From NCBI GenBank assembly GCA_031275735.1, contig JAISOJ010000101.1, positions 1 to 46,997 of the forward strand: a stretch of DNA of 46,997 bases. Direction: 5' to 3'. This DNA is from Dysgonamonadaceae bacterium. GTDB taxonomy: Bacteria; Bacteroidota; Bacteroidia; Bacteroidales; Azobacteroidaceae. Within the stretch, counting starts at the first letter, position 1. Each line of letters begins with the position of its first letter. Both the position numbers and the translations under genes were made by a program. Shown in pieces: positions 6,404 to 31,898 of this stretch. The notes below the pieces were generated by a model. The model did not search any database. It was not told the origin of the DNA and saw nothing but the letters and a program-made list of their open reading frames with translations.

Positions 6404-7420
6404 ATGACTCGTATTTCAATGAAAGACATAGCCCGCGAATTAGGGGTTTCTATAGCCACTGTTTCCCTGGTACTCAACGGAAAAGATAAAGACGGTCGGG
6501 TAGGAAAAGAAATGGCAGAGAAAATCCGTCGTAAGGCCAAAGAAATGAATTATGAACCGAACAACCTGGCCCGCGGCTTGCGCATTGGGGTTTCCAATAC
6601 AATTGGTTTGATTGTGGCGGATATATCGAACTTGTTTTTTGCTAACCTGGCTTTTCACATCCAGGAACAAGCTGAAAAATTCGGTTACAGTGTCATAATT
6701 ACCAACACTAACGAAAGCAACCTTAAACTGGAAAAAATGATTACCATTTTGAAAAATAAGCTGGTCGATGGTTTTATCATCGTACCTACGGAACATGGAG
6801 AATCCCTTATACAAAATTTAGTGAAGCGAAATATGCCGGTTGTACTGATAGACCGCTATTTCCCCAATCTCAATGTAAGTTCGGTTATTGTAGACAATTA
6901 CAACGCCTCTAAAAAAGCATTGAGGTGTTTGATAAACCAGGGATGCCGGAATATCGGATTGGTTATTTACAAAAGCGATCTGCAACACATGCTCGACCGG
7001 AAAAAAGGATATGTAGATGAACTCCAAAACGCCGGTTTGTATAATCCCGCATTGATCAAAGAAATTAATTATTCTTCCATTACAGACGACATAACAATTG
7101 CCATGGAAAGTCTATTGTCGCGTGAAAATGAAGTTGACGGCATCTTTTTTGCAACTAATACCTTATCTATGCTAAGTATCAAGTATATGCTGGATATGAA
7201 TATCAAGCTGTACGAAGAAATTAAAGTTGTTTGTTTTGATAAGAGTGATGCATTTGATTTCACCTCGCTTCACATTTCCTACATACAACAGCCGATTGCC
7301 GAAATGGGAACGAATGCCGTCGGATTATTGGTTGAACAAATGAAACGAAAATCCGTCGAACGCAAAGAGGATGAAATTAAAATTGTTGAATTGCAAACTT
7401 TCCTGATGAATGTTTTGTAG
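6404..7420 (+). CDS. LacI-family transcriptional regulator of the glycan locus
   Basis: A 338-residue repressor. The N-terminal HTH is classical (MKDIARELGVSIATVSLVLN, about residues 6-25) with a hinge at NYEPNNLARGLR, then a periplasmic-binding-protein-like effector domain (NTIGLIVADISNLFFANL onward). Length is typical. It stands at the head of the plus-strand locus, directly before the permease. A LacI repressor controlling a SusC/SusD locus is less common than hybrid two-component systems or ECF sigma/anti-sigma pairs. By position its effector could be a free sugar or sugar phosphate of the pathway (D-arabinose, D-ribulose or a derivative); that is inference. The start ATG gives the MTRISMKDIA N-terminus expected of the family. 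Confidence 0.92.
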   Translation: MTRISMKDIARELGVSIATVSLVLNGKDKDGRVGKEMAEKIRRKAKEMNYEPNNLARGLRIGVSNTIGLIVADISNLFFANLAFHIQEQAEKFGYSVIITNTNESNLKLEKMITILKNKLVDGFIIVPTEHGESLIQNLVKRNMPVVLIDRYFPNLNVSSVIVDNYNASKKALRCLINQGCRNIGLVIYKSDLQHMLDRKKGYVDELQNAGLYNPALIKEINYSSITDDITIAMESLLSRENEVDGIFFATNTLSMLSIKYMLDMNIKLYEEIKVVCFDKSDAFDFTSLHISYIQQPIAEMGTNAVGLLVEQMKRKSVERKEDEIKIVELQTFLMNVL

Positions 7421-7440
7421 CTTTTTTATAATCTGAATAG

Positions 7441-7452
7441 TTAAACGTTTAA
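7441..7452. promoter_or_regulatory. Perfect 12-bp palindromic candidate operator before the permease
   Basis: TTAAACGTTTAA is a perfect palindrome with central CG in the 92-base gap between the LacI gene and the permease gene. It differs by one base from the sites at 6353 and 10171. A weaker half-site (cgttaaac) is at 7491-7498. Confidence 0.55.
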
Positions 7453-7512
7453 TTAATGAAATAACATTATAAATTCAAAATAAATCAATACGTTAAACAC
7501 ACAAAAATTATT

Positions 7513-8928
7513 ATGAAACAACAAATTATTCCGAAAAACGTATTATTGCCTTTCATTCTGCTAACAACTTTGTTCTTTGCCTGGGCGGTCCCAAACAATC
7601 TGACCGACACCATGTTGGCAGCCTTTAAAAGAATCATGAGTTTATCCGATTCCAAAACGGCATGGATACAAGTTGTCTGTTACCTATTAGGTTACGGTTG
7701 CTGTGCCATTCCCGGTGCGCTGTTCATTAAAAAATACACCTATAAATCGGGAGTACTGTTGGGCTTATCCTTGTATGCCGCCGGATGTTTCCTTTTCTAT
7801 CCCGCCATGTTGTGCTTGCAAATCAATGCCGATGTAAGTTTCATCATGTATTTGGCAGCAATATTCATCTTATTTGCAGGACTTTCCGTACTGGAAACCT
7901 CCGCTAACTCGTATGTCTGTGCGATTGGCCCGGAAGAAACCGCTACCCGGCGATTGAATTTTTCCCAATCATTCAACCCTTTCGGGGCTATTGCAGGCGT
8001 TGTAATCAGTCAGGTGTTTATACTGTCCCAACTGAATTTGTTTACAGCCTCCGAACGAGCTTCGCTTCAAGCCTCCGAACTGGCCGAAATACAGGGCGGT
8101 GAACTAAACTCGGTAACAATGACTTATGTAGCCTTGGGCGTGATCATGTTTGTATTGTTGACTGCTATCCTGTTTACCCAAATGCCTTCTTTAAAGGAAG
8201 GCGGACAAAAATTAGAATTTGGAGCTACTTTCAAGCGGTTAATCAAAAATAAAAATTACGTATGGGGAGTTGTTGCCCAATTTTTCTATGTAGGAGCGCA
8301 AATCTCCGTCTGGTCGTTTGTAATCCGTTATGTGATGCAACAATTGAATCTGGACGGAATTGTCGCATCGGTAGGCGCGAATGCCTCTCCGGAAGCGATT
8401 GTAGAAGCTTTGCGGAATGTAGAACCGATTGCGGCAGGCTTTTATAACTTTTGTGAATGGATCGGATTAAACGATTTGTTTCCCCGCACTTCGGAACAAG
8501 CCGGGGCTACTTATTATATTCTGTCGCTTGTCCTGTTTGTGATTGCCCGCTTTACCTGTACGGGTTTGATGAAGTTCATTAAACCGCATAAAATCCTTGC
8601 AGTATTGGCTGTTGCGGCTGTCGCCTGTTGTTTGCTGACGATTTATGGAAACGGTTTCATGGGCGTTTATGCGCTGATGGGTATCTCCGGCTGCATGTCG
8701 TTAATGTTTCCGACCATTTATGGGACAGGCATTCGGGGATTGGGTGAAGATACGAAAATAGGAGGCGCCGGCATGGTGATGGCCATTGCCGGAGCAGCAG
8801 TACTTACACAAATTCAAGGCATTATATCCGACTCGTCGAGTATAAAAACAGCTTACTGGATTCCGGCAATTGCCTTTGCTGTAATAGTATATTATAGTTT
8901 AGCCGTTTGCAGGAAAATAAATGTATGA
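7513..8928 (+). CDS. fucP: FucP-type sugar:proton symporter (MFS)
   Basis: Inner-membrane monosaccharide importer of the major facilitator superfamily, L-fucose permease branch. 471 residues with about 12 hydrophobic helices. FucP signatures are visible: FFAWAVPNNLTDTML near residue 22, and the GLSVLETSANSYVCAIGPEE block near residue 133 followed by RRLNFSQSFNPFGAI. An insertion-like loop around residues 275-320 is longer than in E. coli FucP. L-fucose and D-arabinose share stereochemistry at ring carbons, and fucose systems are known to accept D-arabinose, so uptake of D-arabinose is a reasonable inference here. It lies first in the operon after the regulator. Confidence 0.88.
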   Translation: MKQQIIPKNVLLPFILLTTLFFAWAVPNNLTDTMLAAFKRIMSLSDSKTAWIQVVCYLLGYGCCAIPGALFIKKYTYKSGVLLGLSLYAAGCFLFYPAMLCLQINADVSFIMYLAAIFILFAGLSVLETSANSYVCAIGPEETATRRLNFSQSFNPFGAIAGVVISQVFILSQLNLFTASERASLQASELAEIQGGELNSVTMTYVALGVIMFVLLTAILFTQMPSLKEGGQKLEFGATFKRLIKNKNYVWGVVAQFFYVGAQISVWSFVIRYVMQQLNLDGIVASVGANASPEAIVEALRNVEPIAAGFYNFCEWIGLNDLFPRTSEQAGATYYILSLVLFVIARFTCTGLMKFIKPHKILAVLAVAAVACCLLTIYGNGFMGVYALMGISGCMSLMFPTIYGTGIRGLGEDTKIGGAGMVMAIAGAAVLTQIQGIISDSSSIKTAYWIPAIAFAVIVYYSLAVCRKINV

Positions 8929-8998
8929 ATGTAAGATAACAAAAATGCTTCATATTTAACGCATCAGCAATCATTAAAATTTAAAATTAAAAACAGTC

Positions 8999-10159
8999 AT
9001 GAAACACGCAATTTTTTTATTTACGGCATTATTTATTACCGTATCGCTTTTCTCGCAGAACCATCCATACAACGGTTTGGACAACAACTTGGGAAATCTC
9101 TTTCGTTTATCCGATGCAAAAACCCGTTCCATCAGTCCTGAAAATTTCACGGGAGAAAAAGGAAAAGGCGGCATGGCGGATTTGAAAGACAAGGACCTGC
9201 GCAACGTTGCCAACGCTGCCCATGCCGCCCGCGATCTGGGACAAGCTTGGAAAGTAAATCCCTACATTCGGATCAATCCCCAAGAAACACTTACCATTGC
9301 CGAAATCGAAGGCCCGGGAGCCATTCAGCACATCTGGATGACGCCCACAGGCAACTGGCGCTTTACCATTATCCGCATCTACTGGGACGACGAAAAAGAA
9401 CCATCCGTCGAATGTCCCGTCGGCGATTTCTTCGGCATGGGATGGGGCATTTACGCACCCTTGACTTCCCTCGCAATATGCGTCAATCCCGGAAGCGCAT
9501 TCAACTGTTACTGGACGATGCCCTTCCGCAAAAAATGCAAAATCACCATGGAAAACATCAACGACCAGGATGCGATGACTTTGTATTATCAGATCGACTA
9601 TACATTGACGGAAGTACCCCAAGATGCCGCCTATTTCCACGCACAATGGAGGCGCGCCAATCCGAACACAACTTCCGATTATACGATCGTGGACAATATA
9701 CGCGGAAAAGGCCATTTCGTAGGCCTCTACATGGCTTGGGGAGTTAACAACAACGGATGGTGGGGAGAAGGCGAAATCAAATTCTTCATGGACGGAGACA
9801 CGAAATTTCCGACTATCTGCGGAACGGGAACCGAAGATTATTTTTGCGGCTCCTACAATTTCGACCGCGACGGACAATACAGGGAATTTTGTACCCCCTA
9901 TGCCGGACTGCACCAGGTGATTCGTCCCGACGGAACTTACCGCTCCCAACAACGTTTCGGACTTTACCGTTGGCACATCAACGATCCCGTACGTTTCGAA
10001 AAAGACCTGAAAATAACCATTCAGGACCTGGGATGGCGGCATGGCGGACGCTATCTGCCGCAACAATCCGACATGGCATCCGTCGTGTTTTGGTATCAAA
10101 CCGAGCCGCACAACAAATTTCCGAAACTCCCGGAATGGGAAGCATTGGAAGTAAATTAA
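8999..10159 (+). CDS. GH172 (DUF2961) exo-furanosidase, short form
   Basis: A 386-residue secreted protein with signal peptide MKHAIFLFTALFITVSLFSQ. The body is a DUF2961 double-jelly-roll enzyme, the family now numbered GH172, whose known members act on alpha-D-fructofuranosides and D-arabinofuranosides. GPGAIQHIWMTP and CPVGDFFGMG are family motifs. The two conserved acidic motifs are WWGEGE (E257) and GTGTEDYF (E279), about 22 residues apart, and I assign them as the likely catalytic pair. It lacks the lipobox and the T9SS tail of its paralogue at 23163, so it is probably periplasmic and trims imported oligosaccharides. Confidence 0.9.
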   Translation: MKHAIFLFTALFITVSLFSQNHPYNGLDNNLGNLFRLSDAKTRSISPENFTGEKGKGGMADLKDKDLRNVANAAHAARDLGQAWKVNPYIRINPQETLTIAEIEGPGAIQHIWMTPTGNWRFTIIRIYWDDEKEPSVECPVGDFFGMGWGIYAPLTSLAICVNPGSAFNCYWTMPFRKKCKITMENINDQDAMTLYYQIDYTLTEVPQDAAYFHAQWRRANPNTTSDYTIVDNIRGKGHFVGLYMAWGVNNNGWWGEGEIKFFMDGDTKFPTICGTGTEDYFCGSYNFDRDGQYREFCTPYAGLHQVIRPDGTYRSQQRFGLYRWHINDPVRFEKDLKITIQDLGWRHGGRYLPQQSDMASVVFWYQTEPHNKFPKLPEWEALEVN

Positions 10160-10170
10160 TTTAAATTTAA

Positions 10171-10182: not shown

Positions 10183-10186
10183 TACC

Positions 10187-12757
10187 ATGAAAAAGTTACA
10201 TTACATATTATTGCTAACAACAAGCATCATTTGCAACGCTTGCCTTGTCGACAAAAAAGAAGCCGGAAAAGATTTCAACAGCATTTACGAACACGAGCGC
10301 CTGAACCGCATTGCTTTCCCGATCGGCGGCATAGGCACAGGCATGTTCTGTATCGAAGGAACGGGCGCCATTTCGCACATGTCCCTGCGGCATCACCCCG
10401 AACTCTTTCACGAACCCTGCATGTTTGCCGCCATACACGTAAAAGGCCTGCAAAACGGAACAAAAGTGATCGAAAAAACCGTTCCCGACTGGAAAAAATT
10501 TGGCGGGCGCGAATCTTCACTGGGCAACGGAGGAACCACCTGGGGATTGCCCCGATTCGAAGAAGGAACATTTTCCGTTCGTTTTCCCTTCGCGGAAATC
10601 AAGCTGAAAGACAAAGATTTACCCTTAGACGTAAGCTTGAAGGCATGGAATCCCTTTATCCCGACCGACGAAGACAATTCCGGCCTGCCCGTCGGAGCAA
10701 TCGAATACACATTCAAAAACACAAGCTCCGAAACCCTCGACGCCATTTTCTCCTACAATTCCCGCAATTTCATGTATGTACATGGAAAAGGCTCATCATC
10801 CGTCCAGCCCATTGCCAACGGTTTTATCCTCTCGCAAACAGGCGCCGAAAACGAACCCTTCCACCAGGGCGATTTCGCAATTTTCACCGACCACCCCCAA
10901 ACCAAAGTCGATCGCCTCTGGTTTCGCGGCGGATGGTTCGACCCCTTGACAATTCGATGGAACGACCTGGCCGCAGGAATCATCAAGGAAAACGGCTTTG
11001 AACAGGGAGCGCCCGGAGGCTCCCTATTTGTACCCTTCCGGCTGAAACCCGAAGAAGAACGGACAATCACTTTGTATATGGCCTGGTATGTCCCCTATTC
11101 CAATCTGCGGTTCGGCCCCGACCCCGCAACTCCCGACGACTTGCCGAGCTTTAATCCCCAAGCGGAAAAATCGGACGAAACATACAAAAACGAAGCAGGC
11201 TCTCCCTGTTACCGTCCCTGGTATAGCCGTAAATTCAAATCCATACAGGAAGTAAGCGATTATTGGAAAACAAACTATGCCGATCTCAAGCAAAAATCCC
11301 GATTATTTGCAGATGCTTTCTACGCCAGCACGCTTCCGCCCGAAGTCGTGGAAGCTGTGGCCGCCAACCTGACCATCCTCAAATCAACCACCACCTTCCG
11401 CCAATACGACGGACGGATGTGGAACTGGGAAGGAAGCGGCGACGCCTGGGGAAGCTGTCATGGCTCATGCACTCACGTCTGGAACTACGCACAAGCCCTT
11501 CCCCACCTCTTCCCCAACATGGAACGATCGCTCAGGGAAACCGAATTTCTGATCAGCCAGGATAGCCGCGGACACCAGGCCTTCCGATCCAATCTGCCGA
11601 TACGCCCCGTTCACCACGATTTTCACGCAGCCGCAGACGGACAATTGGGCGGTATCATGAAAACACACCGCGACTGGCGCATCTACGGAAACAACGACTG
11701 GCTGGCAAAAATGTATCCCGCCCTCAAGCAAAGCATGGATTATTGCATCAGAACATGGGACCCGCGCGAAACAGGCGCTTTGGAAGAACCCCATCACAAC
11801 ACCTACGACATTGAATTTTGGGGACCCGACGGCATGTGTACCAGTTTCTATACCGGCGCATTACAAGCCATCACCCTGATGGGAAAAGCCCTGGGCGAAG
11901 ACGTAAGCCCTTACGAAACCCTCTTGACAAAGAGCAGGGACTATATGGAAAACAAGCTATACAACGGCGAATACTTCATTCAGAATATCCGATGGAAAGA
12001 CCTGGACGCACCCGACCCCACGAAAGCCCTCTCCTTCCATTCCCAATACACGCCCGAAGCCGTTGCCATCCTCCAAAAGGAAGGCCCCAAATACCAGTAC
12101 GGCACAGGTTGCCTGTCCGACGGCATACTGGGAGCCTGGATGTCCCTGGTATGCGGAATGAACGAACCGATAGACAAGGCAAAAGTAAAAAGCCATTTGA
12201 ACGCCGTTCACCGTTACAACCTGAAAAAAGACCTCAAAGACCACGCCAATCCGCAACGCCCGACTTTTGCCCTGGGCAACGACGGCGGTCTGCTGTTATG
12301 CACCTGGCCCAAAGGCGGAAAAATGCAATTGCCCTTCGTTTACAGCGACGAAGTATGGACGGGAATCGAATACCAGGTCGCTTCACACCTGATGTTCGAA
12401 GGAGAAACCGAAAAAGGCCTGGAGATCGTCAAGACAGTTCGCCGGCGATACGACGGACGCATCCGCAACCCGTTCAACGAATACGAATGCGGCGCCTGGT
12501 ATGCCCGAGCCATGTCTTCCTACGGACTCCTCGAAGGATTGACCGGCGTCCGCTACGACGCCGTCGAAAATATCCTCTACATGGATTCGCGCGTGGGAAA
12601 CAACTTTACATCCTTCCTTTCCACCAGCGCCGGCTTCGGCAATGTCGGCCTGAAAAAAGGAAAACCCTTTATCGCCATCCGATACGGTTCAATTCCGATC
12701 AAAAAATGCATCGTATCGGGAATTGAAATGCCTTGTGAAATCAACAGGGAAATGTAA
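10187..12757 (+). CDS. GH116 family glycoside hydrolase lipoprotein
   Basis: 856 residues with the GBA2-type N-terminal domain (from AFPIGGIGTGMFCIEGTGAI, about residue 43) and the GH116 (DUF608) (alpha/alpha)6 catalytic domain in the C-terminal half. Signal-peptide cysteines at 16 and 19 (SIICNACLVDKK) suggest a lipoprotein with a somewhat unusual lipobox. By comparison with characterised GH116 enzymes, E415 (MWNWEGS) is the likely nucleophile and D541 (HHNTYDIEFWG) the likely acid/base, 126 residues apart. GH116 includes beta-glucosidases, beta-xylosidases and, in D-arabinan-degrading Bacteroidetes, enzymes associated with arabinofuranosides. Here it sits between a GH172 and SusC, so an exo-role on D-arabinan ends is likely. 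Its codons are strongly C/G-ending compared with the flanking chromosome. Confidence 0.88.
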   Translation: MKKLHYILLLTTSIICNACLVDKKEAGKDFNSIYEHERLNRIAFPIGGIGTGMFCIEGTGAISHMSLRHHPELFHEPCMFAAIHVKGLQNGTKVIEKTVPDWKKFGGRESSLGNGGTTWGLPRFEEGTFSVRFPFAEIKLKDKDLPLDVSLKAWNPFIPTDEDNSGLPVGAIEYTFKNTSSETLDAIFSYNSRNFMYVHGKGSSSVQPIANGFILSQTGAENEPFHQGDFAIFTDHPQTKVDRLWFRGGWFDPLTIRWNDLAAGIIKENGFEQGAPGGSLFVPFRLKPEEERTITLYMAWYVPYSNLRFGPDPATPDDLPSFNPQAEKSDETYKNEAGSPCYRPWYSRKFKSIQEVSDYWKTNYADLKQKSRLFADAFYASTLPPEVVEAVAANLTILKSTTTFRQYDGRMWNWEGSGDAWGSCHGSCTHVWNYAQALPHLFPNMERSLRETEFLISQDSRGHQAFRSNLPIRPVHHDFHAAADGQLGGIMKTHRDWRIYGNNDWLAKMYPALKQSMDYCIRTWDPRETGALEEPHHNTYDIEFWGPDGMCTSFYTGALQAITLMGKALGEDVSPYETLLTKSRDYMENKLYNGEYFIQNIRWKDLDAPDPTKALSFHSQYTPEAVAILQKEGPKYQYGTGCLSDGILGAWMSLVCGMNEPIDKAKVKSHLNAVHRYNLKKDLKDHANPQRPTFALGNDGGLLLCTWPKGGKMQLPFVYSDEVWTGIEYQVASHLMFEGETEKGLEIVKTVRRRYDGRIRNPFNEYECGAWYARAMSSYGLLEGLTGVRYDAVENILYMDSRVGNNFTSFLSTSAGFGNVGLKKGKPFIAIRYGSIPIKKCIVSGIEMPCEINREM

Positions 12758-12813: not shown

Positions 12814-14094
12814 ATGAAAAAAAGATTCACTTACTCAGTATTGCTTTTGTTGGCCGCAGGCATAATATCCTGCAACAAAAGCGCCCAAAAAGAAACAAAC
12901 ATGGATGTATTTGAAAATGGAACATTCGGCTACGACCTGAAATACTTGGCCGGAAAAGACAGTATTATCCTCTTGAGCAGCCTCGACGGGCAAGCACAAG
13001 TAATCGTTTCGCCCAAATACCAGGGCAAAGTATTTACAAGCTCTGCCGGAGGATTGGAAGGAAAAAGCCTGGGATTTGTCAATTACAAGGCATTGGAGGC
13101 CGAAACAATCGACCCGCACATGAATGGCTACGGCGGCGAAAACCGCTTTTGGCTGGGGCCGGAAGGAGGCAAATACTCGGTTTTCTTTCAGCCCCTCGCG
13201 GAACAGCGGTACGATAACTGGCACACTCCCCCACCGTTCGACACCGAATCGTGGGAAATCGCCGCTGCCGATCAAAAAAACGCCGCGCTAAAAAAGGAAA
13301 TGGAAGTAACAAACTACCTGGGAACCCGATTGAAATTGCAGATAAACAGGCACATATCCCTAATCGAACCTTCGAAAATCGAAGCGGAACTAAACATTGA
13401 GCTGAATCCGGAAATAAAAACGGTAGCCTACGCTACGCACAACAGCATCACGAACCTGAACGATTTCGAATGGACCGAAAAAACAGGAACCATTTGCATC
13501 TGGATACTCGACATGTTTATCCCCTCGCCCCGCGCACTAACGATTATCCCCTACAACGAAGGAAACGAAAGCGAACGCGGAAAAATCCTTACTTCCGATT
13601 ACTTCGGCGAAATCCCCTCCGACCGTCTGAAGATAAAAAACAATACCATCTATCTGAAAACCGACGGCAAATACCGCAGCAAACTGGGATTGAACGGCAA
13701 GCGCGCCCGAACGCTTGCAGCCAACTACGACCCCGACGCACAGCGGCTTACACTCGTCGCTTACGATGTAGACCCCGACGCCGTCTATCTGAATCAGGAA
13801 TGGAATCCCGAAAAAGACCCCTTGAACGGCGACGCCATGAACGCCTACAACGACGGCCCGCTGGAAGACGGAAGCATCATGGGACCTTTCCTCGAACTCG
13901 AAAGCGTTTCCCCCGCAGCATTCCTCCAACCGGCGCAATCGCTTTCGCACAAGCACTCGGTCTATCACTTCATTGCGGAAGAAAACGCATTAAACCCATT
14001 GGCAGAGAAACTGTTTGGAATCTCCATACACGAAATGAAAAAGATATTCGATCAACAGGAAAGTCCGCAGCCGCCGCAGAACCTTCAGCATTAA
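12814..14094 (+). CDS. DUF6786-like lipoprotein, possible mutarotase-fold protein
   Basis: 426 residues. The signal peptide ends in a lipobox (LLAAGIISCNKS, Cys 20). The remainder is predicted from its patterns to be beta-rich, with GGENRFWLGPEGGKYSVFF (about residues 107-125) and a C-terminal GPFLELESVSPA followed by HKHSVYHFIA. I recognise it as the type of protein filed under DUF6786 in Bacteroidetes; the layout recalls galactose-mutarotase-like folds (aldose epimerases), but I see no proof of activity. It lies between GH116 and SusC, so it may bind sugars, interconvert anomers or ring forms of released arabinose, or be an uncharacterised hydrolase. The ATG at 12814 precedes a normal signal peptide. 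Confidence 0.6.
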   Translation: MKKRFTYSVLLLLAAGIISCNKSAQKETNMDVFENGTFGYDLKYLAGKDSIILLSSLDGQAQVIVSPKYQGKVFTSSAGGLEGKSLGFVNYKALEAETIDPHMNGYGGENRFWLGPEGGKYSVFFQPLAEQRYDNWHTPPPFDTESWEIAAADQKNAALKKEMEVTNYLGTRLKLQINRHISLIEPSKIEAELNIELNPEIKTVAYATHNSITNLNDFEWTEKTGTICIWILDMFIPSPRALTIIPYNEGNESERGKILTSDYFGEIPSDRLKIKNNTIYLKTDGKYRSKLGLNGKRARTLAANYDPDAQRLTLVAYDVDPDAVYLNQEWNPEKDPLNGDAMNAYNDGPLEDGSIMGPFLELESVSPAAFLQPAQSLSHKHSVYHFIAEENALNPLAEKLFGISIHEMKKIFDQQESPQPPQNLQH

Positions 14095-14112
14095 CGGAAG
14101 CAACATTCGTGC

Positions 14113-14210: not shown

Positions 14211-17200
14211 ATGAAAATTATGTTAGAAAAAGTTAAAACAGGGGGCGAAACGACCATCCTCTCCAAAAAGTTGCTAATGAAGCTGGTAGCATTATCCATT
14301 TGCCTGGTATCAGGCCTGATAATCCAGCCGATGCATGCACAGAACAGTCGCGACGGCGCCAAAAAGATAGAAGGCGTTGTACTCGACGTAAACGGAGAAC
14401 CGCTAACAGGCTTGGTAGTTGCAGTAAAAGGCACGACCCATGCAACACCCACCGACTTGAACGGAGAATTTACGATCGACGTAAAACCGTCGGACGTACT
14501 TGTATTCACCTACCTGGGATTCCAGACGCAGGAAATCCCCGTATCCGACAAGACCAGGCTCAACGTAGTCATGCGCGAAGCAAGCATAGAGCTGGAAGAC
14601 GTCGTAGTAGTAGGTTACGGCCAACAAAAGAAAATATCCATTACAGGCGCCGTTTCCAACGCCAACGTGCACGACCTCCAAGCCGTACCCTCCGCTTCGT
14701 TTTCCAATGCACTGGCAGGACAAGTACCCGGACTCATCACCCGACAACCCTCCGGAGAACCCGGATTCGACGGAGCCGCCCTCTATGTGCGCGGCATGGG
14801 AACATTCACCTCCAAACGGCATCCGATTGTCTTTGTCGACGGCGTCGAGCGCGACATCAACATCGTGAACCCCCAGGAAGTCGAAAGCCTCACCATCCTG
14901 AAAGACGCCTCCTCCACAGCCGTCTACGGCGTGCGCGGAGCAAACGGAGTCATCCTGATCACCACCAAAAAAGGAAAAAAAGGAAAACCCAAAGTCTCCT
15001 TCCGATCCGAATACGCCACGCTGGCAGCCATGCGGTTCCCCGAATACATCGAGGCATACGAATACGCCACGCTGATGAACGAAGCGCGGATAAATTCCGG
15101 CCTGACGCCCGAATTTTCGGCAGAAGAAATTGGATATTACCGCGACGGAACCGATCCCTACCTCTATCCCAATGTAGACTGGATAAGCGAAGTATTCAAG
15201 GAAAACACCTGGCAATCCTCGCAAAACCTGACCATTTCGGGAGGAAACGAAAATGTCCGCTACTACATCAACCTGGGCTATATCGGCAAAGACGGTCTGT
15301 ACAAGGAAGACAAATCGCTCGACTACAAAACCAATGGCGGAAAATTCCGACGATACAACCTGCGCTCCAACGTGGATGTGGACGTTTCCAAAGACATTGA
15401 ACTCAACATGGGACTTGCCACTACCATTCAGGACAGAGGCTACCAGGGAGCATCCGCCGGAAATATCTGGGATCAGATACGCAGAACTCCCGCAATGCTC
15501 TACCCCGTACGCAACCCCGACGGCTCCATAGCCGGAGGAGGAGCTACCGCATACCTCCTGGAAAACCCCTATGGACAGGCTACCCAGACAGGCTACACCC
15601 AGATGTTTATCGGGCACAGCCAGGGTAACGTAAACGCCCGTTGGGACTTGTCCAACCTGCTTGCCAAAGGACTGTCCGTATCCGCCAAATTCGCTTTCGA
15701 CTACTATTACAAAAACGAAGTCGTCCGACGCATTGCTTACGGCGTAAAACAGGTAACAGGCAAAGACGCAGACGAAAACTACACGTACCAGACCTGGCGC
15801 GAACAGGGAACAATGGGATATGCCGTCGATATACAGGACGCCACCTACGACCTGTATTATGAAGCCGCCCTCAATTACGAACGCACCTTCGGAAAACACA
15901 ACCTGGGCGCCATGCTCCTGTTTAACAGGAAAGAATACAAGCTGCTGACCGCCGCAACATCCATTGCCAACCTTCCCTACCGACACCAGGGACTGGCCGG
16001 ACGGTTTACCTACAACTTCAATAGCCGCTACATGGCCGAAGTGAATATGGGCTACAACGGATCCGAACAATTCCCCAAAGGAAACCGTTACGGATTCTTC
16101 CCCGCCGTATCCGCCGGATGGGTGCTCAGCAACGAAAGCTTCTGGGGAATCGACTTCATAAACCACCTGAAACTGAGGGGATCCGTCGGGCAAGTCGGTA
16201 ACGACCAGGCCGACGGCGACCGATACCTCTACATAACGGCTTTAGACGTCAACCCGCACGCCGGAGTAGAATACTGGTACGGACCGGGACAAACCAGAAT
16301 CCACGGCATCGAAGAATTTAAATTCGGCGTCCCCCTGAAATGGGAAACAGCCACCAAATACGATGCAGGAATCGATTTGGGCATATTGAATGTCTTCAAT
16401 CTCACCCTGGACATTTACAAGGAACACCGAACGGATATACTCCTCCGCAGGGCAACCGTACCGGGATTCGTCGGACTTGTGCCGCACGGCATACCCTACG
16501 GAAATATCGGCGTCGTGGACAACAAAGGCTTCGATGCATCGATCGAATTTAAAAACAAAACCTCTTACGGCTTGACGTATTCCTTCAATGCCAACATTTC
16601 GTATGCCCGAAACACCATCATCGAAGACGATTCGCCCCGTCCCGCCGAACCGTATCAGGACCACAGGGGGCAGCCCATCGACCGGCCCATGGGACTGATT
16701 GCAATGGGACTCTTCGAATCGCAGGAAGAAATAGACGGATGGCCCAAATCGACCTTTAAAACCGATCTGATCCCCGGCGACGTCAAGTATCAGGATGTAA
16801 ACAACGACGGCTTCATCGACGCCAAAGACGAAGTCTATATGGGACACCCCTTCATCCCCGAAATCATGTTTGGATTCGGAGGCGCCATGAACTATAAAAA
16901 CTTCGACGCAACCGTCCACTTTTCGGGAGTTGCCAACCGAAGCACCTTCCTGACGGGCGACGGGATATGGCCCTTCCAACTCGGATACGGAACATACAAC
17001 ATCATGAGGGAATATTACGACAACCGGTGGATACCGGGCGAAGGCGTCGACAACACCGCCGCCAAATATCCGACGGTGATATCCACAAGTGCAAATGTCC
17101 ACAACAACCGCAACTCGACCCTCTACCTGAAAGACGCCTCCTACCTGAGGCTGCAAAGCGCCGAAATCGGTTACACACTTCCGCACAGATGGACAAACGC

Positions 17201-17348
17201 AATGAAACTGGAAAGCATCCGCTGCTTCCTGAACGGAAGCAACCTGCTCACTTTCGACAAACTCAAAATAGTTGATCCCGAGCAAAACATTGGCGACAAT
17301 TATCCTTTGCAGAGAACAATTAACATAGGAGCACAAATCAACTTTTAA
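14211..17348 (+). CDS. SusC-family TonB-dependent outer-membrane glycan transporter
   Basis: 1045 residues. After a signal peptide (about 20-44, ending MHAQ) comes a carboxypeptidase-D regulatory-like domain (KKIEGVVLDVNGEPLTGLVV, about 47 onward). A TonB-box-like stretch VVVVGYGQQKK precedes the plug domain, whose SusC signatures are GQVPGLITRQPSGEPG and SLTILKDASSTAVYGVRGAN. A 22-strand barrel ends in the expected ...INIGAQINF with C-terminal Phe. It should import oligosaccharides bound by the adjacent SusD, powered by TonB-ExbBD. No N-terminal STN domain is present, so regulation through an anti-sigma factor is not expected, in keeping with a LacI-controlled locus. Confidence 0.95.
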   Translation: MKIMLEKVKTGGETTILSKKLLMKLVALSICLVSGLIIQPMHAQNSRDGAKKIEGVVLDVNGEPLTGLVVAVKGTTHATPTDLNGEFTIDVKPSDVLVFTYLGFQTQEIPVSDKTRLNVVMREASIELEDVVVVGYGQQKKISITGAVSNANVHDLQAVPSASFSNALAGQVPGLITRQPSGEPGFDGAALYVRGMGTFTSKRHPIVFVDGVERDINIVNPQEVESLTILKDASSTAVYGVRGANGVILITTKKGKKGKPKVSFRSEYATLAAMRFPEYIEAYEYATLMNEARINSGLTPEFSAEEIGYYRDGTDPYLYPNVDWISEVFKENTWQSSQNLTISGGNENVRYYINLGYIGKDGLYKEDKSLDYKTNGGKFRRYNLRSNVDVDVSKDIELNMGLATTIQDRGYQGASAGNIWDQIRRTPAMLYPVRNPDGSIAGGGATAYLLENPYGQATQTGYTQMFIGHSQGNVNARWDLSNLLAKGLSVSAKFAFDYYYKNEVVRRIAYGVKQVTGKDADENYTYQTWREQGTMGYAVDIQDATYDLYYEAALNYERTFGKHNLGAMLLFNRKEYKLLTAATSIANLPYRHQGLAGRFTYNFNSRYMAEVNMGYNGSEQFPKGNRYGFFPAVSAGWVLSNESFWGIDFINHLKLRGSVGQVGNDQADGDRYLYITALDVNPHAGVEYWYGPGQTRIHGIEEFKFGVPLKWETATKYDAGIDLGILNVFNLTLDIYKEHRTDILLRRATVPGFVGLVPHGIPYGNIGVVDNKGFDASIEFKNKTSYGLTYSFNANISYARNTIIEDDSPRPAEPYQDHRGQPIDRPMGLIAMGLFESQEEIDGWPKSTFKTDLIPGDVKYQDVNNDGFIDAKDEVYMGHPFIPEIMFGFGGAMNYKNFDATVHFSGVANRSTFLTGDGIWPFQLGYGTYNIMREYYDNRWIPGEGVDNTAAKYPTVISTSANVHNNRNSTLYLKDASYLRLQSAEIGYTLPHRWTNAMKLESIRCFLNGSNLLTFDKLKIVDPEQNIGDNYPLQRTINIGAQINF

Positions 17349-23162: not shown

Positions 23163-25499
23163 ATGAGAAATATCTTTTTAATAGCGTTGTTATTCATTGT
23201 CGGATCAACCGTTTCGGCGCAAACAATCACCACCGCCTCGCTGCTGGAAGAACTGATAGACCGCGAGGCAATGGTCCGATTTCCGTCGCCCGCCTACACG
23301 CTCAAGCAATTCAGCAGTTACGACCGCGCCTCCGTCGACCCCGACCGCAGCGGATGGTTCGGCAATGAAGACAACAATCAGTTTATCCGAACGGAAACCA
23401 ACAGGGGCCGGCGCGAATACGTGCTGTTCGATGCACAAGGGCCGGGCGCCATAGTACGCTTTTGGGCAACGGTAGCGGGCTATTCCAAACCCATGTTCTT
23501 GCGTATCTACATGGACGGAAAAAGTACGCCCGTCATTCAGGGAGAACTGTTGTCGTATCTCGGCAACGGCGGCCTGGTACCTGCGCCCCTCGCGGCATCT
23601 GTGGCAAGCGCTACGGCAGCGGAACAACGGGGGTATAACCTTTACCTGCCCCTGCCTTACGCACAATCCTGCAAAATAACGGTGGAATGTGAAAACGAGC
23701 TTGTATCGCCCCCGAACGGCGAAGTGCTTTATTACAACATCAACTACCGAACGTATCCCGACGGAACCGATGTACAATCTTTTTCCCCGACCGACGTCGC
23801 TTCCACCTGCAAAAACACGCTCAACCAAGTAGTGGCCGCTTTGCGCGATTACGACCGGCAAATACCGTCCGCCGCAATTGCCCAACAGAACAACAACGTG
23901 CTGCTGGCAAGCGGACAACACGCTTCGCTGCAATTTTCAGGCTCCAAAGCCATACGGCAACTCAAAATCAAACTCTCCGCCGAAGACTTTCCGCAAGCGC
24001 TGCGCTCCACCGTTTTGTCCATTTCATTCGACGGCGAACAGCGGGTTTGGGCGCCCGTAGGCGATTTTTTTGGAACAGGCTATTGGCTTTCGGCCTACAA
24101 ATCGTGGTATTCCGAAGTGAGCGCCGACGGAACAATGACCTCCTACTGGCTCATGCCCTTTTCGGAGCAATGCACCATTCGCCTCGAAAACCTGGGCGCG
24201 GAAAACGTACAGGTAGAAACATTGGAAGCCCTGTCGACCGATCGGGCATGGGACGCGGCGCGCGACATGTATTTCGGCGCCGGATGGTATGAAGAATACG
24301 ACATGCCGAGTTGGGACGAAAACGGCAATCATTTCGACTTGAATCTACTGACGCTCACAGGCAAAGGCAAGCTGGCCGGCAACGGAGTCGCCCTGTTCAA
24401 CACCGCCGCAGCATGGTGGGGCGAAGGCGACGAAAAAATTTATGTCGATAACGAACCCTTCCCATCCTCCTTCGGCACAGGCAGCGAAGACTATTACGGC
24501 TACGCCTGGTGTTTACCCGCCCGATTTTACCATCCGTTTATTGCACAACCCGACGGAAGCGGCAACCTGGAGCCTGGCCATTCCGTCAATTTGCGCTATC
24601 GATCGCTGGACGCCATCCCCTTCTCCTCCCGATTGCAATTCGACATGGAAATGTGGCATTGGGCCTATACACGAATAAACTATGCGCCCATTACCTATTT
24701 CTACCTCCAAAGCGGCCAATCCAATCTCGGCGCGAATCCCGAAATGGCGCGAAAAAAGGTGGTAACAAACCGCAATCAATTAATAAACAATACGGTAGAT
24801 AAATATGGAATAGCAGAATTTGAAAATATGCCCGATACAAAATCCGGCGGAAACAACCAACTGCAATACGACTCTTTCGGATTGAACTGGGGCGGTCAGG
24901 CACAATCCTGGTGGCGCGACGCCGCTCCGAACGACTGGATAGAATACACTTTTATTTCGGCCGCCGAAGGTTATTTTCCCCTGGAAATGAACATCACCAA
25001 GGCAAACGACTACGCTCGGTTCGACGTCTATTTCAACGACGTAAAATGCGCCTCCGTCGACGCTTACAATCCCTTTATCACTACCGAATGGATTCCGCTG
25101 AACGAAGGGCCGCTAAAGAAAGGCGAAAATAAAATAAAAATAGTTCTTACGGGCAGAAATCCCGCTTCGATCGGCAACGTATATATGGTGGGATTCGACC
25201 GCCTGCAAATTCACGATTACTACCCTGCAGGCATGGAAAACCGTTCCGCAGGGATAAACATCTATCCCAATCCGGTAATGGACAAACTGATCATTACCGC
25301 AGAAAATGCGGGAGAAAATTTGAAAGCAGACTGCATGCAAATTTATGATTACTCGGGCAAAAAAATAATATGCCGGAAACTCTCCAATGCCAACCCCCGC
25401 TTTTCAATCATTGACGTTTCTTCGCTGCCGCAAGGCATATACTGGCTGCGTCTGCAAATCGAAAGGCAAATCTATTCCGAAAAACTGATAAAAATTTGA
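23163..25499 (+). CDS. GH172 (DUF2961) exo-furanosidase, long form with C-terminal beta-domain and T9SS tail
   Basis: I place the start at ATG 23163 (MRNIFLIALLFIVGSTVSAQ), giving 778 residues; the frame open to 23022 overlaps the previous gene and lacks a signal peptide. The DUF2961/GH172 catalytic part spans about residues 25-520. GPGAIVRFWATVAG and APVGDFFGTGYW are family motifs, and WWGEGDE (E421) and GTGSEDYYG (E442), 21 residues apart, are the likely catalytic glutamates. A further beta-sandwich follows (about 575-685, ending NVYMVGFDRLQIHDY), then a T9SS type-A tail beginning INIYPNPVMDKLIITA and ending SEKLIKI. It would be secreted or surface-attached, unlike the short paralogue at 8999, giving the locus one outer and one inner GH172. 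Confidence 0.9.
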   Translation: MRNIFLIALLFIVGSTVSAQTITTASLLEELIDREAMVRFPSPAYTLKQFSSYDRASVDPDRSGWFGNEDNNQFIRTETNRGRREYVLFDAQGPGAIVRFWATVAGYSKPMFLRIYMDGKSTPVIQGELLSYLGNGGLVPAPLAASVASATAAEQRGYNLYLPLPYAQSCKITVECENELVSPPNGEVLYYNINYRTYPDGTDVQSFSPTDVASTCKNTLNQVVAALRDYDRQIPSAAIAQQNNNVLLASGQHASLQFSGSKAIRQLKIKLSAEDFPQALRSTVLSISFDGEQRVWAPVGDFFGTGYWLSAYKSWYSEVSADGTMTSYWLMPFSEQCTIRLENLGAENVQVETLEALSTDRAWDAARDMYFGAGWYEEYDMPSWDENGNHFDLNLLTLTGKGKLAGNGVALFNTAAAWWGEGDEKIYVDNEPFPSSFGTGSEDYYGYAWCLPARFYHPFIAQPDGSGNLEPGHSVNLRYRSLDAIPFSSRLQFDMEMWHWAYTRINYAPITYFYLQSGQSNLGANPEMARKKVVTNRNQLINNTVDKYGIAEFENMPDTKSGGNNQLQYDSFGLNWGGQAQSWWRDAAPNDWIEYTFISAAEGYFPLEMNITKANDYARFDVYFNDVKCASVDAYNPFITTEWIPLNEGPLKKGENKIKIVLTGRNPASIGNVYMVGFDRLQIHDYYPAGMENRSAGINIYPNPVMDKLIITAENAGENLKADCMQIYDYSGKKIICRKLSNANPRFSIIDVSSLPQGIYWLRLQIERQIYSEKLIKI

Positions 25500-25526: not shown

Positions 25527-26768
25527 ATGAAAAGAAAAACAAATAAATCAAGTTGGATCTCATTGCTGCTTCTGCTTTACTTCTTTAGCTGTCAAGGAGA
25601 AGAAGACGCCGATTCCCGCTTGCAAGTCACAACGCTCGGCGCTGCGGGAATTACGAGTACCGAAGCTGCCTGCAAAGGACGCATTGTCGGAAAGAAAGAA
25701 AACATTTCCGCCTACGGCATCGAATTGATACACGGCAATGATACGGTTGCCCACCGGCGGACAAACAATCTCTCCGGCGATGAATTTATTTTCAAAATAC
25801 CCGAACTGATTCCCGCAACTTCCTATCAGTTTCGCGCTTTTGCAGACGACGGAACAATGCATTACGGAGACATAATGAGCTTTACGACGGCGCAGCCTAA
25901 AATAATCGCTTCGCATATCCCCCTTGCCGACCCCTTTATACTGTATCACGAAGGAATTTATTATGCCTACGGCACTAATTCCGACGACGGCATTCCGGTT
26001 TATACTTCCCGCGACCTCACTTTGTGGAAGCGGCGCCCGACATTAGCGCTCGCCAAAGAAAATTCGTATGGCGACCGATGGTTTTGGGCGCCGGAAGTCT
26101 GTTACAGACCCGAAAACAAAACGTTCTACCTGTTCTATTCGGCAGAAGAACATATTTGTGCAGCGACGTCCAATTCGCCGCTCGGCCCCTTCAAACAGGC
26201 CCTACAACAGCCGATGCGTGAGGAAAAATCCATCGACAACACGCTGTTTATCGACGACGACGGCAAGCCCTACCTGTTTTTCGTGCGTTTTACGAACGGC
26301 AACGCTATCTGGTCCGCCGAACTGGAAAACGACTGGCTGTCCGTAAGGGAAAATACCTTGAAGATGTGTGTGGAAGCCGTTTCCGGATGGGAAAGAATAC
26401 AGGCCAAAGTAGCAGAAGGGCCTTCCGTAACAAAACAAAACGGCCTCTACTACCTTCTCTACTCCGCCAACGACTATCAAAGCAAGGATTACGCAGTAGG
26501 CTATGCTGCGGCAAGTTCCCTGACGGATTCCTGGAAAAAGGCGCCGGAAAATCCGATTTTACACAAGCCGAACGAAGAATTGGCGGGTACAGGACATGGC
26601 GCCATGTTTAAGGACAAGGACGGTAATCTGCGCTATGTATTTCACGCGCATTACGACCCGACAACGATTCATCCGCGCAAAATGTATATTACCAACCTGG
26701 CCATTGATAATAATGGAAAAATAAGCATGGATAAGGACAATATAATATATCCGATTGAATATGAATGA
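25527..26768 (+). CDS. GH43 family arabinosidase/xylosidase-like lipoprotein
   Basis: 413 residues. The lipobox is [15 protein letters not shown] (Cys 22), followed by acidic residues that suggest surface display. Residues about 31-122 form an FN3-like domain ([19 protein letters not shown]). The rest is a five-bladed GH43 propeller with the three expected acids: D135 (LADPFIL, base), D237 (SIDNTLF, pKa modulator) and E297 (VAEGPSV, acid). GH43 enzymes usually act on L-arabinofuranosides or D-xylosides. In a D-arabinan locus it may remove a side sugar or have an altered specificity; the sequence alone does not say. The stop lies 46 bases before the proposed fucI start. Confidence 0.88.
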
Positions 26769-26814: not shown

Positions 26815-28596
26815 ATGGAAAAAATGAAAGTAAATTATCCGAAAATTGGAATCCGGCCGATTATCGACGGCCGCAGAAAAGGAATCCGCGAATCGCTGGA
26901 AGAAACGACGATGGCAATGGCTCGCAATGCAGCCCGGTTTTACAACGAAAAACTTCGCTATCCGGACGGTTCACCCGTACAATGCGTCATTGCAGACACT
27001 TGTATCGGAGGAGTAAAAGAAGCGGCCTGGTGCGCCGAAAAATTCGAACGGGAAAACGTAGGCCTTTCCCTGTCGGTAACACCCTGCTGGTGTTATGGAA
27101 CAGAAACCATCGACATGAATCCGCTCATCCCGAAAGCCATTTGGGGATTCAACGGTACGGAACGGCCCGGAGCCGTTTACCTGGCGGCAGCCCTGGCTGC
27201 ACACAACCAGAAAGGCCTGCCGGCTTTCGGTATTTATGGCCGCGACGTACAGGACATGGGCGATACGCTCATCCCGAACGACGTACAGGAAAAGCTCCTG
27301 CGTTTCGCCAAAGCCGGCCTGGCAGTAGCCATGATGCGCGGAAAATCATACCTGGCAATCGGGTCGGTATCTATGGGGATAGCCGGATCAATCGTCAATC
27401 CCGACTTCCTGCAGGAATACCTGGGTATGCGGACGGAATATGTCGATTGCTCAGAAATCCTCCGGCGCGTACAACAGGAAATCTACGACAGGGACGAATA
27501 CGAAAAAGCCCTGGCTTGGACAAAAAAATACTGCAAGATCAATGAATTGCCCGACCACAATCCCGAAGCCATCCGACGGACGCGCGAACAAAAGGACGGA
27601 GATTGGGAATACGTCGTCAAAATGACCCTGATCATGCGCGACTTGATGCAAGGCAATGAAAAATTGAATCTAAAAGGTTTCGAAGAAGAAGCTTTGGGAC
27701 ACAATGCCATTGTCGGCGGTTTCCAGGGACAGCGGCAGTGGACGGATTTCATGCCGAACGGCGATTTTTCGGAAGCCATCCTGAACACTTCCTTCGACTG
27801 GAACGGCGTGCGCGCTCCCATTCCATTCGCTACCGAAGACGACCACCTGAACGGCGTATCCATGCTCTTCGGCTACCTGCTGACCAATACCGCCCAGCTA
27901 TTTGCCGATGTACGCACCTATTGGAGTCCTGCCGCAATTAAACGCGTAACAGGATGGGAAGCAGACGGATTGCTGAAAAACGGCGCCATCCACCTCATCA
28001 ATTCGGGCGCATGCACTTTGGACGCTACGGGCGAACAAACGAAAAACGGCCAACCGATAATGAAACCGTTCTGGGAAATTACGGAAGCCGAAACCGAAGC
28101 CATGCTGAAAGCCACCCGATGGGGACCTTCCTCCCTGGAATACTTTCGGGGCGGCGGCTATTCCTCCAAACTGCTGACAAAGGCAGGAATGCCGGTTACC
28201 ATGTGCCGCCTGAACCTGCTGAAAGGCATGGGCCCAACGCTGCAAATCGCCGAGGGATGGACGGCTGCTTTTCCCGAAGAGGCTTTCGACATCATCGACC
28301 GGCGTACGGACAAGACCTGGCCTTCCACGTTCTTCGTTCCGCGCACTACGGGAAAAGGACGCTTCAAGGACACGTATTCCGTAATGAACTATTGGGGAGC
28401 CAATCATGGCGCCATCAGTTACGGGCACATCGGCGCCGATTTAATCGCGCTGGCCTCCTTGCTCTCGATCCCCGTATGCATGCACAACGTGGAAGAAGAC
28501 GCGATTTTCCGTCCTTCCGCCTGGGCCGCCTATGGAGAAGACCCCGAAGGCTCCGATTATCGGGCTTGTGCAGCATATGGCCCCAGATATAAATAA
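26815..28596 (+). CDS. fucI: L-fucose isomerase family; probable D-arabinose isomerase
   Basis: Cytoplasmic ketol isomerase (L-fucose to L-fuculose, D-arabinose to D-ribulose). I choose ATG 26815, giving 593 residues (E. coli FucI has 591); the frame to 26755 would overlap the GH43 gene. The sequence is close to E. coli FucI throughout, for example [55 protein letters not shown] and [14 protein letters not shown]. The metal ligands are conserved as E341 (ATEDDHLNG), D365 (LFADVRTYW) and H531 (GANHGAIS). The family works on both sugars. With no fuculose-1-phosphate aldolase nearby and a ribulokinase two genes downstream, D-arabinose is the likelier substrate here. Confidence 0.95.
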
Positions 28597-28612
28597 AAAT
28601 AAAAAAATAAAA

Positions 28613-30174: not shown

Positions 30175-30231
30175 TTATTGAATCCATTCGGTAAAAGAGA
30201 TTTTGGATGTAGTGTTAAGTAAATTTTCTCC

Positions 30232-30247
30232 TGAGGCTTTTGAGACA
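30232..30247 (-). repeat. Partial copy of the 35-bp repeat from the 21.5-kb insertion
   Basis: The minus strand reads GTCTCAAAAGCCTCA, 15 bases identical to the start of the 35-base repeat at 21532. It lies in the 119-base gap between the DUF4886 gene and the kinase gene, so the same dispersed element seems to have left a trace here. Confidence 0.5.
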
Positions 30248-30293
30248 GCCCCGGGCTTAACATAATAGGGAACGAAATAAAATAGGATATGAC

Positions 30294-31898
30294 ATGAAAT
30301 ACGTAATAGGAATAGACTACGGCACCGATTCGTGCCGGGCATTAATAGTTGATGCAATCAGCGGCGAAGAAATCGCTGCGGCAGTAAAAAACTATCCCCG
30401 CTGGTCGGCAGGAAAATATTGCGACCCGCAGGCCAATCAATACAGGCAACATCCGCTGGATTATACGGAAACTTTGATTGATTCGGTGCGGGAAGCCTTG
30501 TCGAAATCGCCCGAAGACGTGGCGGAAAATGTGGTCGGCATCTCGTTCGATACTACCGGCTCGACTTCGGTATTGATCGATAAGCGGGGAACACCTTTGG
30601 CCTTGTTGTCCGAATTTTCTGAAAATCCGAATGCCATGTTTATCCTTTGGAAAGACCATACGGCTATCGGGGAAGCCGCCGAAATCAACCGCCTGGCAAA
30701 ACAATGGCCTACCGATTATACAATGTATTCGGGCGGCATTTATTCCGGCGAATGGGTGTGGGCGAAAATGGCTCATGTATTGCATGACGACAGAGAGACG
30801 TTGCAGGCAACGTCTCTGCGGGAGGCTGCGTATTCATGGGTGGAACACTGCGACTGGATGACGGCTTTACTTACGGGAAACACGAAACCCGAAAAAATGT
30901 TGCGCAGCCGCTGCGCCGCCGGGCACAAGGCAATGTGGCACGCCTCCTGGGACGGCTTGCCTTCCGAAGAATTTATAACCGCCTTTGAGCCGCTGCTTTC
31001 CGGCATCCGTTCGCGTTTATATACGCACACGCAGACAGGAGGAACATTCGCCGGCTGCCTGACAAGCGAATGGGCGGCGAAATTGGGATTAACAGCCAAA
31101 GTAGCGGTAGGAGTCGGCGCATTGGATTGTCACGCGGGCGCTGTCGGCGCACAGATTAAGTCGGGTACATTCGTCCGCGTGATGGGCACTTCCACCTGCG
31201 ACGTGATGGTTGTTCCCAACGAACAGATGCAGGGAAAATTGATTTCGGGAATATGCGGACAAGTCGACGGCTCGGTTATAGAGGGAATGATCGGTCTGGA
31301 AGCCGGGCAATCGGCCTTCGGCGACATATATGCCTGGTTTTCGAAGTTGGTGGGAAAAAGTATTTCCGAACTGACCCTGGAGGCGGAAAAACTGCCGGTT
31401 TCCGAAACAATTATTGCAACTGACTGGTTGAACGGCCGGCGCACGCCCGACGCTAACCAGGCGCTCACAGGTACGATTACGGGCTTGACTTTGGGCGCTA
31501 CTCCTGCGATGATTTTCCGCTCGCTCGTCGAGGCTACGGCTTACGGCTCGAAGGCGATTATCGACTGCTTCGCCGAAAACCATATTCATATCGAGGAAGT
31601 AATCGCTATCGGCGGCATTTCCCGAAAATCGCCGTTCGTGATGCAAATCTTGGCAAATGTACTGGACATGCCTATCAAAGTAGCGAAAGCGGAACAAGCC
31701 TGCGCATTGGGCGCCGCCATGTTTGCCGCTGTAGCGGCCGGCGTTTATGCGGATGTTGCTCAGGCACAAACGGGCATGGGAAAAGGGATTGGCAGAGTAT
31801 ATACGCCTAATGCGGAAAGATGTGCCGTTTATTCCAAATTGTATCAAAAGTACCTTGATTGGGGGAGGTTTGCGGAATGGCAATCGGGTGAGTCGTAA
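30294..31898 (+). CDS. araB: Ribulokinase (AraB-type FGGY kinase); probable D-ribulose kinase
   Basis: 534 residues of the FGGY carbohydrate kinase family, AraB branch. N-terminal phosphate motif is VIGIDYGTDSCRALIVDA; NQYRQHPLDYTETL, GISFDTTGSTSVL, AAGHKAMWHASWDGLPSEEF and GTSTCDVMVVP are close to Bacteroidales ribulokinases; the C-terminal FGGY domain has IAIGGISRKSPF. AraB enzymes are known to accept both L- and D-ribulose, yielding the 5-phosphate. With FucI making D-ribulose, the product here would be D-ribulose 5-phosphate, which enters the pentose phosphate pathway directly. No AraA isomerase or AraD epimerase is in the window, arguing against L-arabinose. A 24-bp palindrome (30794-30817) adds a few residues before REAAYSWVEHCDW. 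Confidence 0.9.
   Translation: MKYVIGIDYGTDSCRALIVDAISGEEIAAAVKNYPRWSAGKYCDPQANQYRQHPLDYTETLIDSVREALSKSPEDVAENVVGISFDTTGSTSVLIDKRGTPLALLSEFSENPNAMFILWKDHTAIGEAAEINRLAKQWPTDYTMYSGGIYSGEWVWAKMAHVLHDDRETLQATSLREAAYSWVEHCDWMTALLTGNTKPEKMLRSRCAAGHKAMWHASWDGLPSEEFITAFEPLLSGIRSRLYTHTQTGGTFAGCLTSEWAAKLGLTAKVAVGVGALDCHAGAVGAQIKSGTFVRVMGTSTCDVMVVPNEQMQGKLISGICGQVDGSVIEGMIGLEAGQSAFGDIYAWFSKLVGKSISELTLEAEKLPVSETIIATDWLNGRRTPDANQALTGTITGLTLGATPAMIFRSLVEATAYGSKAIIDCFAENHIHIEEVIAIGGISRKSPFVMQILANVLDMPIKVAKAEQACALGAAMFAAVAAGVYADVAQAQTGMGKGIGRVYTPNAERCAVYSKLYQKYLDWGRFAEWQSGES
30794..30817. repeat. Perfect palindrome inside the kinase gene
   Basis: AGAGACGTTGC and GCAACGTCTCT are 11-base perfect inverted arms with a 2-base spacer. 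The segment lies in frame and encodes part of DRETLQATSLRE. Related ribulokinases, as I recall them, are about six residues shorter at this point. It resembles palindromic repeats that insert into coding sequence, as Rickettsia palindromic elements do. Confidence 0.6.

Follow-up and report, generated by a model that had tools for sequence, protein, structure and literature searches.

The window analyzed here, the whole 46,997-nucleotide stretch of contig JAISOJ010000101.1 from a Dysgonamonadaceae bacterium, is one contig of a 2.43-Mb draft genome that is 75.9% complete. Between positions 6404 and 31898, it carries a single run of 14 genes, all on the plus strand, which is very likely a D-arabinan utilization locus, probably acquired by horizontal transfer. 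D-arabinan is an unusual polysaccharide, found in cell walls of the mycobacterial type. A SusC/SusD pair, linked glycoside hydrolases (GHs), and a regulator give this run the composition of a polysaccharide utilization locus (PUL). Using profile searches and the list of open reading frames (ORFs), we recovered all the families named in a preliminary description of this DNA, each where it had been placed in one cluster behind a LacI-family regulator (6404..7420; PF00356 45.7 bits, PF00532 73.7 bits). The profile scores are too high for chance. Four further products had been missed: a DUF6786 protein, an FG-GAP repeat protein with a sorting tail of the type IX secretion system (T9SS), a GH43 protein, and a DUF4886 protein.

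Hydrolases and their characterized homologs

For each of the three key hydrolases, GH172a (8999..10159; PF11175 335.7 bits), GH116 (10187..12757; PF04685 181.5 bits, PF12215 137.7 bits), and GH183 (21718..23118; PF13810 320.3 bits, cut-off 39.5), the top match among solved structures is a D-arabinan enzyme of Microbacterium arabinogalactanolyticum. They are homologs of an exo-alpha-D-arabinofuranosidase, an exo-beta-D-arabinofuranosidase, and an endo-D-arabinanase, respectively. As their catalytic residues are also kept, these proteins point to D-arabinan as the probable substrate, as the preliminary description had proposed. Its family assignments likewise agree with the Pfam matches: the two DUF2961 proteins fall within GH172 and the DUF4185 protein within GH183.

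GH172a matches ExoMA1 (8ic8) with 403.4 bits and 53% identity, and keeps the glutamates of the WWGEG and GTGTED motifs, E257 and E279. We take this pair to be catalytic, in line with descriptions of the family and with its spacing (22 residues in GH172a and 21 in the second GH172). In DgGH172c, the residues named are E233 and E254, 21 apart. The second and divergent member, GH172b (about 23163..25499; PF11175 213 bits), has the glutamates of both motifs and a T9SS tail (PF18962 48.9 bits), but does not exceed 65.2 bits with any structure, the best being 4kq7. GH172a is closer to ExoMA1 than to the alpha-D-fructofuranosidase alphaFFase1, whereas GH172b is not.

The GH116 protein scores 380.5 bits against ExoMA2 (8ic6) and only 45.2 bits against the next GH116 structure. 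The article on these enzymes gives E431 and D557 for ExoMA2 and singles out H446 and R483 as what chiefly sets it apart from the GH116 beta-glucosidase (PMC10509167). The window protein is identical at all four aligned positions (assuming a chain numbering offset of 4), as expected for GH116 subfamily 4. The best structure match of GH183 is EndoMA1 (8hhv, 195.1 bits), whose catalytic aspartates are D33 and D51 (PMC10509167). These residues align with D170 and D188 of the window protein, located in the motifs TDLG and FGDT, and the match spans positions 3–309 of the 309 of the PF13810 profile. Across 23 aligned rows of the DUF4185 family, both motifs are common to the window GH183, EndoMA1, L121–L126, and L134 (with FGDS in L123 and L126). 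The first motif is missing from the 14 other rows (L018–L027, L135, L002, L003, and L004), and the wider DUF4185 family should therefore not be equated with the window type. A DUF4185 match at E 1e-20 was present in 10 of 395 genomes of the phylum, its own included. The other nine contain ten matches of 88.9–111.5 bits, none with TDLG. Judged by these matches and motifs, GH183 of the window type is rare in the phylum. Contig C127 of genome G509 (locus L196) carries a GH183-family gene of 133 bits with both motifs, together with matches to FucI (75%), LacI (48%), and SusC; this gene perhaps represents a second GH183 branch acting on D-arabinofuranose (D-Araf).

Probable D-arabinose catabolism and the choice of substrate

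The FucI-type isomerase (about 26815..28596; NF008220 1046.5 bits, cut-off 775), the only FucI found in the genome, has as best PDB match a D-arabinose isomerase (3a9r, 961 bits), ahead of five L-fucose isomerase sequences (849–871 bits). Both activities are found in the FucI family (PMC3637100). The last gene of the run encodes an AraB-type pentulose kinase (30294..31898; NF003154 680 bits, cut-off 428), which lies just below the cut-off of TIGR01234 (565.4 bits versus 583.25). It is one of four FGGY kinase matches in the genome, another being encoded by an L-arabinose/L-arabinan operon on contig C111 (L035, 2216-15513). This operon encodes an endo-L-arabinanase (876.9 bits, cut-off 800), AraA (767 bits, cut-off 622), AraD (NF009003 376.8 bits, cut-off 331), two GH51-like proteins, its own AraB-type kinase, and a regulator that resembles repressors of the NUDIX type but scores below the cut-off. 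A 1070-amino-acid protein in which an alpha-galactosidase-like part is joined to a GH127 part is also encoded there. Another sugar locus of the same genome (L036, contig C25, 179-17885) contains SusD, two GH127-type genes, a GH172 gene, an oxidoreductase gene, and a gene for a protein with an FGE-sulfatase-type domain.

The window and C111 kinases are 67% identical. As the L-arabinose operon has its own kinase, that of the window is an extra copy. FucA was not found in the 75.9% complete draft and the single class-II aldolase found is AraD, so the known part of the genome has no aldolase for an L-fucose or ribulose-1-phosphate route. Given the separate L-arabinose operon and the lack of a FucA match, the most plausible role for FucI and the additional kinase is a pathway from D-arabinose to D-ribulose 5-phosphate. 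Isomerase and kinase genes are linked to the hydrolase genes, alongside a separate L-pathway, in agreement with the earlier proposal that the locus has its own monosaccharide route. From its AraB-type membership, we infer that the window kinase is a D-ribulokinase, and the genome seems to hold mirror-image routes for L- and D-arabinose with paralogous kinases. Conversion of D-arabinose to D-ribulose 5-phosphate by an isomerase and a kinase has already been drawn (PMC10509167).

N-termini inspected by eye are lipoprotein-like for GH116, DUF6786, GH183, and GH43, and signal-like for GH172a, GH172b, the FG-GAP protein, and the DUF4886 protein; FucI and the kinase have neither. A cell-surface GH183 would cleave D-arabinan in arabinogalactan, in lipoarabinomannan, or in a comparable glycan containing D-Araf. 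The oligosaccharides would be bound and imported by SusC (14211..17348; PF07715, PF13715), a TonB-dependent transporter, and the predicted glycan-binding protein SusD (17362..19386; PF07980 212.5 bits), perhaps aided by the T9SS-tailed FG-GAP and GH172b proteins. Exported GH172a would take off alpha-D-Araf and GH116 beta-D-Araf. The DUF6786 protein may hasten the mutarotation of the freed D-arabinose, and the FucP-type sugar:H+ symporter (7513..8928; TIGR00885 400.4 bits, cut-off 280.4) would carry it into the cytoplasm. There, FucI would produce D-ribulose and the extra kinase D-ribulose 5-phosphate.

Three observations weigh against this reading. The incompleteness of the draft gives little weight to the absence of FucA, members of both the FucI and the AraB family use several different sugars, and 44 of 50 genomes with near GH172a relatives have neither a GH183 of about 300 bits nor a weaker one with both motifs. 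GH172a alone therefore does not imply a D-arabinan polymer. In a narrower and overlapping variant, the natural target would be D-Araf in lipopolysaccharide (LPS), pilin, or other short Gram-negative glycans and not a mycobacterial-type arabinan. Some GH183 enzymes act on pilin oligosaccharides of Pseudomonas PA7, and LPS has been named as a possible source (PMC10115798). GH172a also often occurs with FucP, FucI, or the kinase in loci where GH183 was not found. Nevertheless, the window locus combines GH183, as an endo-enzyme, with GH116, as an exo-beta-enzyme, and terminal beta-D-Araf is a typical feature of mycobacterial-type arabinan; we consider this variant possible but unlikely.

Substrates other than D-Araf glycans were rejected as the principal explanation. 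It is very improbable that the locus serves alpha-fructan or difructose dianhydride breakdown with GH172 as an alpha-D-fructofuranosidase: GH172a does have alphaFFase1, a difructose dianhydride I synthase/hydrolase, as its second-best match in the PDB, but with 154.1 bits as against 403.4 bits for ExoMA1, and no role in fructan breakdown is known for GH183, ExoMA2-type GH116, FucI, or AraB. L-fucose or a fucoside is just as hard to sustain as the substrate. FucP and FucI do exceed the cut-offs of the L-fucose models TIGR00885, NF008220, and TIGR01089; however, the Pfam matches of the locus include no fucosidase family, FucA was not found in the draft genome, and the kinase is AraB-type and not FucK (TIGR02628 55.3 bits, cut-off 470.9). 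An L-arabinan locus, to which the AraB-type kinase and the weak likeness of GH43 to the endo-L-arabinanase model (33.1 bits, cut-off 480) might point, has equally little to commend it, for AraA, AraD, the GH51-like proteins, and the endo-L-arabinanase are encoded on contig C111 together with their own AraB-type kinase, and neither AraA nor AraD is among the Pfam matches of the window locus.

Origin, relatives, and kinase phylogeny

The G+C content at third codon positions (GC3) is 0.515–0.643 for the genes from GH172a through DUF4886 and for the kinase gene, compared with 0.294–0.428 for 12 flanking genes; LacI (0.431), FucP (0.464), and the T9SS-tail piece that follows DUF4886 (0.442) are lower. 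A strong reading of this difference is tempered by two further sugar loci in this genome, where GC3 is also raised (8 genes, 0.412–0.519; 7 genes, 0.445–0.576). Among 96 relatives (37 congeneric, many incomplete), a search limited to DUF4185 gave no match above 52.4 bits, versus 321.7 for the window GH183. The run is bordered by an inositol monophosphatase gene on one side and a small helix-turn-helix gene on the other. Beyond these single genes lie, on opposite sides, an HD-receptor gene and UvrA. In the congener G014, UvrA follows the HD-receptor gene within about 50 bases, in reversed orientation relative to the window and with the locus absent between them. No locus gene was seen in the stretches, several of them short, around the HD gene of 12 relatives, one of which has UvrA beside it. 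The raised GC3, the lack of a GH183 match in the 96 relatives, and the adjacency of the flanking genes in G014 together favor horizontal gain, with signs that it was recent.

The preliminary description considered the combination of uptake, depolymerization, and catabolism unusual, a view that comparable systems do not bear out. The growth of Dysgonomonas gadei on D-arabinan was tied by proteomics to PUL42, which combines three GH172 and two GH183, all five studied, with a fucose isomerase (PMC10115798), and also has a GH116 (PMC10509167). The locus tags of its GH172a and GH116 are adjacent (HMPREF9455_02467 and 02468), and the window GH172a and GH116 are likewise neighbors. Set against the gene content of PUL42, the window differs by its single GH183, its FucP-type permease, the GH43 and DUF4886 genes, and its T9SS-tailed proteins. 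The M. arabinogalactanolyticum cluster shares GH183, GH172, GH116, and a putative isomerase and kinase, but has a putative ABC transporter and exo-enzymes lacking signal sequences, where the window has SusC/D and signal-like starts (PMC10509167). A Dysgonomonas sp. contig encodes homologs of LacI (40% identity), GH172a (79%), SusC (66%), SusD (54%), GH116 (68%), DUF6786 (58%), FucI (81%), GH183 (52%), and the AraB-type kinase (64%), a permease only 29% alike to FucP, a 645-amino-acid second GH172, and a 697-amino-acid protein lacking a Pfam match. In UBA8128, GH183, SusC, FucI, DUF6786, GH116, and GH172a are all encoded on one contig. Clusters of this kind were thus already known; the signs of recent gain and the proposed function of DUF6786 are new.

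Scanning genome contigs with GH172a, we confirmed at least 573 relatives, of which the best 80, 68–93% identical, were used to survey neighborhoods. Their titles name Bacteroidota groups and, in one case, Chlorobiota; together with SusC/D and the T9SS tails, the titles of the nearest of them point to Bacteroidota as the phylum of the window. Within up to 10 kb of GH172a (tblastn, E 1e-10, many loci being cut short), we counted SusC in 22 of the 80 loci, GH116 in 21, the FucP-type permease in 19 (11 at 63% identity or more), LacI in 16, SusD in 13, FucI in 11, the AraB-type kinase in 8, and GH43 in 6. GH183, found in 2, was rejected as a usual neighbor. Searching the whole records of 50 of these loci, we obtained DUF4185 matches at E 1e-10 in 13, four of about 300 bits and two more (133 and 117 bits) with both motifs. 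The use of D-arabinofuranosides without GH183 looks common, provided that the specificity of GH172a is conserved. Loci L066, L073, L085, and L095 share with the window the families of its exo-enzyme, permease, isomerase, and kinase (GH172a, DUF6786, FucP, FucI, and AraB), but their four records gave no DUF4185 match at E 1e-10.

The kinases of these four loci cluster together, apart from that of the window. We built two trees from the records of 20 loci and the genome itself. The first, of 26 rows, omitted L192 (broken ORF) and a G514 fragment; in the second, of 25 rows, the long-branched L193 was dropped, and L172, L179, and L183, unlabeled in the first, were labeled D. A single specialized clade of D-locus kinases was rejected: the D label requires three changes in both trees, at least two forced with 26 rows and at least three with 25, although three changes could equal one gain and two losses. 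Shuffled labels gave a number as low in 0 of 500 trials for either tree. Seven D-locus kinases cluster with supports of 85/9 (26 rows) and 97/92 (25 rows), six of them with 99/100 and 100/100, and L191 pairs with an L-operon kinase (100/99). In the 25-row tree, the Dysgonomonas kinase groups with other D kinases (89/89); for the window kinase, no pairing is well supported, and it sits at an unresolved fork. This topology suggests either repeated recruitment of L-ribulokinases to D-ribulose or a single gain of the role followed by loss. AraB-type kinases with neither AraA nor AraD among the matches occur near GH116 in L172 and L183 (64–65%), near FucP in L179 (70%), and in L190 with none of the searched-for genes beside them.

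DUF6786 and accessory proteins

The lipoprotein-like DUF6786 protein (12814..14094; 509.9 bits) has a galactose-mutarotase-like fold in its predicted structure, and DUF6786 lies within 10 kb of GH172a in 27 of the 80 loci. We aligned the window protein with 22 of these 27 homologs, omitting L037, L053, L063, L077, and L108 as fused, cut, or short. The catalytic residues of GalM are E304 and H170. In DUF6786, E361 and E363, both invariant, fall within the stretch LELES, which may resemble the GalM motif LETQ, but the sole invariant histidine is H385, near the C-terminus. No mention of DUF6786 was found in a literature search. On the basis of the predicted fold, DUF6786 may be a D-arabinose mutarotase. 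In L037 (7263-10964), GH116 and DUF6786 form a single 1233-residue open frame, in which the DUF6786 start with its signal is missing. A wider proposal, which we regard as a tentative though serious possibility, is that DUF6786 proteins are exported D-arabinose (aldopentose) mutarotases, or same-fold glycosidases, and form a new family dedicated to D-arabinofuranoside uptake in Bacteroidota, and that D-Araf use is common in the phylum and often exo-only, which would imply an unrecognized and widespread D-Araf glycan.

Among the remaining products, GH43 (25527..26768; PF04616 175.9 bits) has as best PDB match 3kst (317.9 bits), deposited as an endo-1,4-beta-xylanase. A part in galactofuranan removal was considered, and the listing returned by a literature search gave nothing on this protein. 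The FG-GAP protein (19571..21502, ORF listed from 19511; PF13517 95.2 bits, T9SS tail TIGR04183 27.7 bits) is perhaps involved in surface glycan binding. The DUF4886 gene (28619-29713; PF16227 354.9 bits) and a T9SS-tail piece (29686-30174) overlap in two frames. Since both are matched by a single ORF in L063 and in L073, 28619..30174 apparently corresponds to one split gene, for which a frameshift, an assembly error, and decay are all possible. A 697-amino-acid protein lacking a Pfam match adjoins a 645-amino-acid GH172 at both the GH183-bearing locus L182 (protein at 8098-10191) and the GH183-free locus L066 (protein at 13133-15226). It is perhaps an unrecognized enzyme of the D-arabinan pathway.

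The locus adds a further uncultured lineage to those in which D-arabinan loci are known and provides a fresh set of enzymes for mycobacterial-type cell-wall glycans. Two side findings deserve a bench test: for DUF6786, a frequent partner, there are now a fold prediction and a function that can be tested, and the paired AraB-type paralogs make the choice of enantiomer within the AraB family testable.

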